Assembly (NCBI RefSeq): GCF_014651595.1 | Contig: NZ_BMXE01000002.1 | Location: 62,001-126,000, forward strand | Direction: 5' to 3' | From: Pseudovibrio japonicus | GTDB lineage: Bacteria; Pseudomonadota; Alphaproteobacteria; Rhizobiales; Stappiaceae | Length of the DNA stretch: 64,000 bases | Shown: one piece after another, positions 8,314-11,102 of the stretch | How positions within the stretch are numbered: the stretch's first letter is position 1 | How the letters are laid out: each line of letters starts with the position of its first letter | Program-made: the position numbers and the translations under genes | The notes under the pieces: generated by a model | What the model was told of the DNA's origin: nothing | The model's database searches: none | The model's input: only the letters and a program-made list of their open reading frames with translations

Positions 8314-8652
8314 TCAAGGCACTCTACAGGTGATATCTTCACCAGCCTGTGCTTCACAGCAGGTCCATTCGGTGTAGTCATCCAGACATGCCTCGCCCCC
8401 TATTGAGCGACGATTGCAAAGTCTATTTGTCTGGAAGGTATAGCGATCATCGCGGGCAATATCTGTAAAACGATAGATATGACCATTGGGAGCATCAGGA
8501 CCGATTGTGACCTGAACTTCGCAAACCCTCATATCATTCCCTTCCAGAGTGATTGAGGTTGCATTGGCTTTCTCACCTAGCGCCAACACGAGGAAAAGAG
8601 CCGAAAATGCGAAGAATGCAAACCAGAGGGGACGCTTCAAACACAGGGCCAT
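8314..8652 (-). CDS. Small secreted cysteine-rich hypothetical protein
   Basis: A 112-residue protein with a signal peptide (hydrophobic core LWFAFFAFSALFLVLALG, likely cleavage after ANA). The mature part has six or so cysteines (RVCEVQV, RLCNRR, EACLDDYTEWTCCEA, ITCRVP), suggesting a disulphide-stabilised periplasmic or extracellular domain. I do not recognise a family. The start at 8652 has an AGGTG ribosome site. A longer reading from 8700 would prepend a polar leader and is less likely. It is flanked by unrelated genes and no operon partner is apparent. Confidence 0.6.
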   Translation of the reverse strand: MALCLKRPLWFAFFAFSALFLVLALGEKANATSITLEGNDMRVCEVQVTIGPDAPNGHIYRFTDIARDDRYTFQTNRLCNRRSIGGEACLDDYTEWTCCEAQAGEDITCRVP

Positions 8653-10953: not shown

Positions 10954-11033
10954 TCCATATCCAGATTACTGGGCAAACTTGGGATCTGTTCGCCGGGTTA
11001 TCACACATTTGAAGGGTGTTGTCGCTCTGGTCC

Positions 11034-11047
11034 TTGACCTCCATCAA
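11034..11047. promoter_or_regulatory. FNR/Anr-type binding site between ubiD and ubiT
   Basis: TTGACCTCCATCAA matches the FNR/CRP-type consensus TTGAT-N4-ATCAA at 9 of 10 defined positions. It lies 55 bp before the ubiT ATG and 80 bp before the ubiD ATG, so it could control either or both promoters. An FNR-type activator at this position would induce oxygen-independent ubiquinone synthesis under low oxygen. The site is read directly; the regulator is inferred and is not encoded in this window. Confidence 0.6.
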
Positions 11048-11102
11048 TGATGAGTCCCGCTAGGATTAATAGGAGAGGATACTGATCAGTGGAGATTAAA
11101 GT

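Follow-up and report, generated by a model that had tools for sequence, protein, structure and literature searches.

The closest described counterpart of the locus analysed here is in Rhodobacter sphaeroides, where a single FnrL site, TTGATgtagGTCAA, is listed for the two units RSP0466-4 and RSP0467-8 (ubiD), both of which are activated (PMC2908626, 2010), and where the same two units recur in a ChIP-seq target table of a CrpK/FnrL section (PMC4263372). That these units are divergent is inferred from the gene numbering. In R. capsulatus, strains deleted for ubiD-X or for ubiU-V grow in air and fail to grow without oxygen, UbiN being the decarboxylase used in air, and ubiD is said to be expressed both with and without oxygen (PMC10626278). 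UbiD and UbiX of E. coli serve both pathways (PMC6747719), and for Hyphomicrobium denitrificans the authors suggest that other proteins stand in for UbiD and UbiX in air (PMC12423496).

Within the window (the whole 64-kb stretch of Pseudovibrio DNA that was analysed), ubiD-ubiX and ubiT-ubiU-ubiV diverge from a 149-nt gap that holds TTGACCTCCATCAA (Table 1), and the two operons form a divergent unit around a single box. It is probable, at roughly 0.8, that the gap is a divergent low-oxygen promoter pair controlled from this one FNR/FixK-type box, and that the box serves to induce ubiquinone synthesis once oxygen is exhausted. Given the FnrL precedent in R. sphaeroides, the main claim is known in kind.

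Table 1. Features of the divergent ubiDX and ubiTUV operons, in window coordinates.
Feature	Coordinates	Strand	Basis
ubiX, UbiX-family flavin prenyltransferase, 187 aa	8801..9364	-	NCBIfam/Pfam
ubiD, UbiD-family decarboxylase, 530 aa	9361..10953	-	NCBIfam/Pfam
Predicted ubiD -10, TCAAAT, first base 22 nt from box	11007..11012	-	-10-like hexamer; predicted start near 11000
FNR/FixK-type palindrome TTGACCTCCATCAA	11034..11047	.	sequence match and conservation
Predicted ubiT -10, TAGGAG, weak	11070..11075	+	family-wide 23-nt offset; predicted start near 11082
ubiT, SCP2-domain accessory factor, 178 aa	11103..11639	+	NCBIfam/Pfam
ubiU, U32-family protein, 339 aa	11711..12730	+	NCBIfam/Pfam
ubiV, U32-family protein, 298 aa	12740..13636	+	NCBIfam/Pfam

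Gene content and arrangement

The gene set of the O2-independent ubiquinone pathway is present, with UbiT (61 bits, cut-off 46.9), UbiU (516 bits, cut-off 440) and UbiV (347 bits, cut-off 275) all above their NCBIfam family cut-offs. UbiX scores 229 bits against a cut-off of 188, and UbiD passes the subfamily model (449 bits, cut-off 245) and falls below the stricter equivalog model (558 bits, cut-off 788). The ubiX gene overlaps the end of ubiD by 4 nt, and ubiD is the only PF01977 match in the genome. UbiU is 98% identical to the nearest named one, from P. denitrificans JCM 12308, in a comparison from which the window's own genome was possibly excluded. A small open frame without a Pfam match adjoins ubiX (window 8314-8652, - strand).

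The FNR consensus is TTGATN4ATCAA, and TTGACCTCCATCAA is one base off it. The first-pass annotation had described a 14-mer of this kind lying between divergent ubiD-ubiX and ubiT-ubiU-ubiV, and on both points it was right. It had also called the linking of ubiDX to ubiTUV as one divergent unit unusual, which does not stand: ubiD is divergent to ubiTUV with a gap below 700 nt in 35 of 66 loci sampled from the order, which represent 16 of its 25 sampled families and 27 of the 52 genera, and R. sphaeroides offers a listed precedent (PMC2908626). Outside the order the arrangement was seen in one of 34 loci, and contig ends may conceal some further divergent loci.

Across 87 genomes of the family, 46 carry both UbiD and UbiU, six UbiU only, none UbiD only and 35 neither (cut-off 1e-60); the association gives a Fisher p of 1.8e-18, a value inflated by ignoring relatedness. 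All 16 Pseudovibrio genomes have UbiU. That UbiD never occurs without UbiU in these genomes fits an anaerobic-only role, and ubiDX and ubiTUV look like one anaerobic module in the family. The placing of ubiDX in the anaerobic branch, as originally proposed, is therefore supported by the co-occurrence together with the R. capsulatus ubiD-X deletion (PMC10626278). The objection that ubiDX is not specifically anaerobic, UbiD being single-copy here and dual in role in E. coli (PMC6747719), was dropped on the same two grounds. These observations support a place for ubiDX in the anaerobic ubiquinone branch of these Alphaproteobacteria, unlike the dual use in E. coli.

The six family genomes with UbiU and no UbiD match at 1e-60 are G497, G798, G804, G811, G815 and G838 (L231-L236). 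In one Pseudovibrio genome ubiD matches in two overlapping pieces (G788:C3:303480-305046; L041), so that either the gene is broken or the sequence contains an error.

In air, another enzyme would decarboxylate, as UbiN does in R. capsulatus. Two UbiH-family hydroxylases score above cut-off in this genome, and a search of it for COQ7 found none. One protein, L238, is nearest to 3-hydroxybenzoate 6-monooxygenase (302 bits, cut-off 459; salicylate monooxygenase 157, cut-off 446) and is a possible counterpart of UbiN, whose published description it resembles. Another, L237, passes as a 4-hydroxybenzoate 3-monooxygenase and was set aside as a candidate.

Conservation of the box

Matches to UbiU were found in 42 of 385 genomes in a search of the class and in 118 of 397 in a search of the order. 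The loci with UbiU that were examined number 161, of which 61 are named and 100 come from 100 further genomes, a subset of the UbiU-positive ones chosen mainly for genus coverage. Five loci without ubiT placed upstream of ubiU (L093, L094, L097, L098, L101), four that failed position filters and nine near-duplicates were removed, leaving 143; the duplicate filter was mild, and several close Pseudovibrio loci stay among these. Gene starts in relatives were extrapolated from tblastn, so that the distances given below carry some error.

Conservation of the 14-mer at the same position in relatives had been proposed as a check, and the pattern is kept, being exact in all 12 other named Pseudovibrio loci, with the box centre 59.5-68.5 nt before ubiT and 87.5-139.5 nt from ubiD. 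All 16 loci whose titles name Roseibium, Labrenzia, Stappia or Pannonibacter likewise have it exactly (one strain contributes two contigs), as do 11 of 12 further same-family loci, some of which are the same strains; the sole miss among these 12, L109, reaches 7/10 at best. When the gap of the window was aligned with those of 15 chosen relatives (L109 excluded), TTGA....TCAA stayed invariant, and elsewhere no two adjacent bases did. The exact TTGAY-N4-RTCAA palindrome and its conservation before the same gene mark it as a probable FNR/FixK/DNR-type site.

Of the 143 loci, 60 have an exact match less than 250 nt from ubiT and 88 have one of at least 9 of 10 positions, compared with 0 and 14 of 143 in a control stretch of equal length inside ubiU. 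Permuted half-sites gave at most one exact match in 143, except for two box-like permutations (24 each). An exact box is thus absent from 83 of the 143 ubiT loci. It occurs in 34 of 66 loci with divergent ubiD and in 26 of the 77 others, and being exact in both groups it is independent of ubiD. Counted by genus in the order the box is rarer: of 27 genera with the divergent arrangement, 8 have it exactly and 17 match at 9 or more of 10 positions, and of 26 non-divergent genera, 9 and 16 do so. Among 34 loci from outside the order, 15 carry the exact pattern. This conservation is strong evidence for the box.

Symmetric box variants stand before ubiT in other genera (TTGAG....CTCAA and TTGTT....AACAA; L152, L162, L181), which may reflect a shifted regulator specificity. 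A pair of small contigs titled Roseibium aggregatum PHM038 holds two ubiTUV copies that resemble each other (L055, L056; G798:C73, C83).

Promoter geometry

Flanks of exact boxes were aligned and scored for -10 elements with a frequency matrix and the E. coli consensus. On the ubiT side, the best -10-like offset lies 23 nt after the box (58 sequences in 44 clusters; peak reached by none of 2000 shuffles), in divergent (34) and non-divergent (24) loci alike (0/2000 each). On the ubiD side, the best offset is likewise 23 nt (34 divergent sequences in 22 clusters; 0/2000). Here, the peak is reached by 0/1000 shuffles without Pseudovibrio, by 35/1000 in other Stappiaceae and by 46/1000 in the six sequences from outside the Stappiaceae, while in Pseudovibrio alone the best offset is 22 (reached anywhere by 40/1000) and there is no peak at 23 (163/1000). 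As a control, the side facing away from ubiT in non-divergent loci has its maximum at 28 (reached by 460/1000 shuffles), with the value at 23 being reached by only 33/1000.

A -10 at 23-nt spacing puts the box centre at -41.5. In exact-box relatives, -10-like hexamers at this activation spacing on both sides suggest one dimer serving two promoters. The reading of -41.5 in both directions describes an average over these relatives and is weak in this genome itself, as the ubiT-side hexamer at offset 23 scores -0.83 bits, the ubiD-side hexamer lies at offset 22 with 2.61 bits, and better hexamers occur at other offsets.

An alternative is that the box serves the ubiT side only and ubiD, a mere neighbour, has a promoter of its own. 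This would agree with the exact box before ubiT in the 26 of 77 loci without divergent ubiD, with the tighter distance to ubiT than to ubiD in named Pseudovibrio loci, and with R. capsulatus, where no differential expression is listed alongside the ubiD site (PMC4634722). We nevertheless consider it unlikely, in view of the -10-like peak that divergent loci show at this offset towards ubiD as well, the listing of RSP0467-8 as FnrL-activated (PMC2908626) and the restriction of UbiD to family genomes with UbiU.

What the sequences themselves show is a conserved box, a conserved set of genes and a UbiD that accompanies UbiU. Under the favoured reading, control of both operons from the one box, as oxygen falls, an activator of the CRP/FNR family would bind the palindrome and recruit RNA polymerase both towards ubiTUV and towards ubiDX, from about -41.5 at both promoters, and the decarboxylase pair and the O2-independent hydroxylase system would be made together. 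More specifically, and at somewhat less than even odds, a single FixK/FNR dimer may act as a two-way class II activator at around -41.5 from both starts, with the oxygen signal arriving through FixL-FixJ-FixK and not through an iron-sulphur FNR. Such a dimer would probably feed polymerase to the two sides in turn, since two polymerases would overlap. If true, the gap would be a compact promoter, with both operons possibly driven by one bound dimer; a single box at -41.5 from both ubiT and ubiD was not found discussed in the portions of the literature available to us.

The protein that reads the box

The first-pass annotation had named FNR as the type of regulator, and had suggested a genome scan for an FnrL/Anr gene and matching sites. 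The matching sites were found, at 24 exact occurrences genome-wide, but the expected protein was not. In the genome searched, which is listed as 100% complete in 24 contigs, 19 matches to PF13545 were inspected, six of which are CRP/FNR-like by reading, and none of these six has the three N-terminal cysteines and the central one of a 4Fe-4S FNR. Instead, a PAS histidine kinase, a FixJ-like regulator and an FNR-like protein lie side by side, as in a FixL-FixJ-FixK cascade. The FNR-like member, L003 (G000:C1:658326-659072), adjoins the FixJ-like and FixL-like genes near hemN and ccoN. Both partners score under the curated cut-offs (314 of 850 with the FixL model, positions 123-483 of 485 being matched, and 221 of 255 with the FixJ model).

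Homologues of L003 are present in 86 of the 87 family genomes, including ones without UbiU, and in 30 copies (this genome's own included), with the start taken at the conserved GG.M, none has the three N-terminal FNR cysteines. The absence of a four-cysteine protein from those found, together with the FixL-FixJ-FixK-like cluster beside hemN and ccoN, makes the reader more likely to be of the FixK type than an FNR. Our favoured candidate is L003, the FixK-like neighbour of the fixL-fixJ-like genes; L002 and a DNR-type protein are further possibilities.

L002 (L002:997-1764; G000:C12:61762-62526; homologues L249-L267) is a second FixK-like protein, with an exact box before its own gene. Its N-terminal cysteines follow the pattern C-x4-CGF-x4-C-x-C, with no central cysteine; the pattern is largely retained in homologues down to ~40% identity, and L002 may hold a metal or cluster differently from FNR. 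As sole reader of the box it was rejected, being absent at high identity from six of the 16 Pseudovibrio genomes.

Were the reader a true oxygen-sensing 4Fe-4S FNR, the FNR-type box itself would be explained, as might the four conserved N-terminal cysteines of L002 with the box before its gene and the slightly higher score of L003 with the FnrL model than with the FixK model (110 vs 107 bits), though both scores are far under the cut-off of 300 and NCBIfam cannot separate the two for L003. This seems improbable, since the six proteins, lacking the cysteine set, count as FixK by the rule given for CRP/FNR proteins in PMC2908626, both L002 and L003 have FixK2 as their best solved relative, and no more than 10 of the 16 Pseudovibrio genomes hold L002 at high identity, as against UbiU in 16 of 16. 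An FNR-type box in Pseudovibrio's family hence need not imply an iron-sulphur FNR.

A nitric-oxide-responsive reader of the DNR type, which would recognise nearly the same box, appears less probable still. FNR, FixK and DNR boxes are nearly identical, and a comparative prediction put RSP0465 (U32) and RSP0466 (lipid-carrier) in the DNR group, but binding data list the R. sphaeroides site as FnrL-bound (all PMC2908626).

Other boxes and chance level

TTGACCTCCATCAA is the sole exact match to TTGAYN4RTCAA in the window. Over 64 kb such a match arises fairly often by chance, at least one being present in 33 of 100 shuffled windows (mean 0.39), and matches with one mismatch are at background level (10 observed, 8.15 expected). 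It is the placement that counts, as only 0.00066 exact sites are expected in the 149-nt gap from base composition. A chance match without a role, for which those 33 shuffled windows could be cited, is very improbable, because the placement of the box is conserved while the remainder of the gap diverges.

The whole genome holds 24 exact palindromes compared with 14 for a backward control pattern, by which about 14 of the 24 could be due to chance. The other 23 include boxes before ccoN, hemN, feoA, a Usp gene, COX2, pyruvate formate-lyase, an Rrf2 gene and the cytochrome c peroxidase gene with L002. At ccoN the box reaches into the beginning of the called open frame, a frame that is probably too long. 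Seven of the 23 are inside open frames, and others precede genes with no evident oxygen tie (glycosyl hydrolase, TetR, LysR, ArsR, NMT1-type). The earlier suggestion that one site could switch both operons is supported in that the box is conserved and placed for both, and in that other boxes stand before classic low-oxygen genes (ccoN, hemN, feoA, pyruvate formate-lyase, cytochrome c peroxidase), though further boxes fall within open frames or before genes without an oxygen tie.

Comparison with known systems

A survey of Pseudomonadota gives candidate FNR boxes for 1362 of 1566 ubiTUV triplets, in line with the box described here; its main text was not found to contain the term ubiD (PMC11707229). 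In Hyphomicrobium denitrificans, the genes are similarly grouped, as ubiXDTUV, and change together, but the change is seen in sHdrR and SoxR mutants, unlike control by FNR or FixK (PMC12423496). As in E. coli, where ubiUV and ubiT are activated anaerobically through FNR boxes, the genes concerned are those of O2-independent ubiquinone synthesis, yet in E. coli two boxes lie between ubiUV and ubiT (PMC10470549). The nearest likeness is to Rhodobacter sphaeroides. The regulator there is FnrL, whereas no four-cysteine FNR was found in the Pseudovibrio genome, but the layout agrees: one box for two units, one with the lipid-carrier and U32 genes and the other with ubiD, both of which are activated in that species (PMC2908626).
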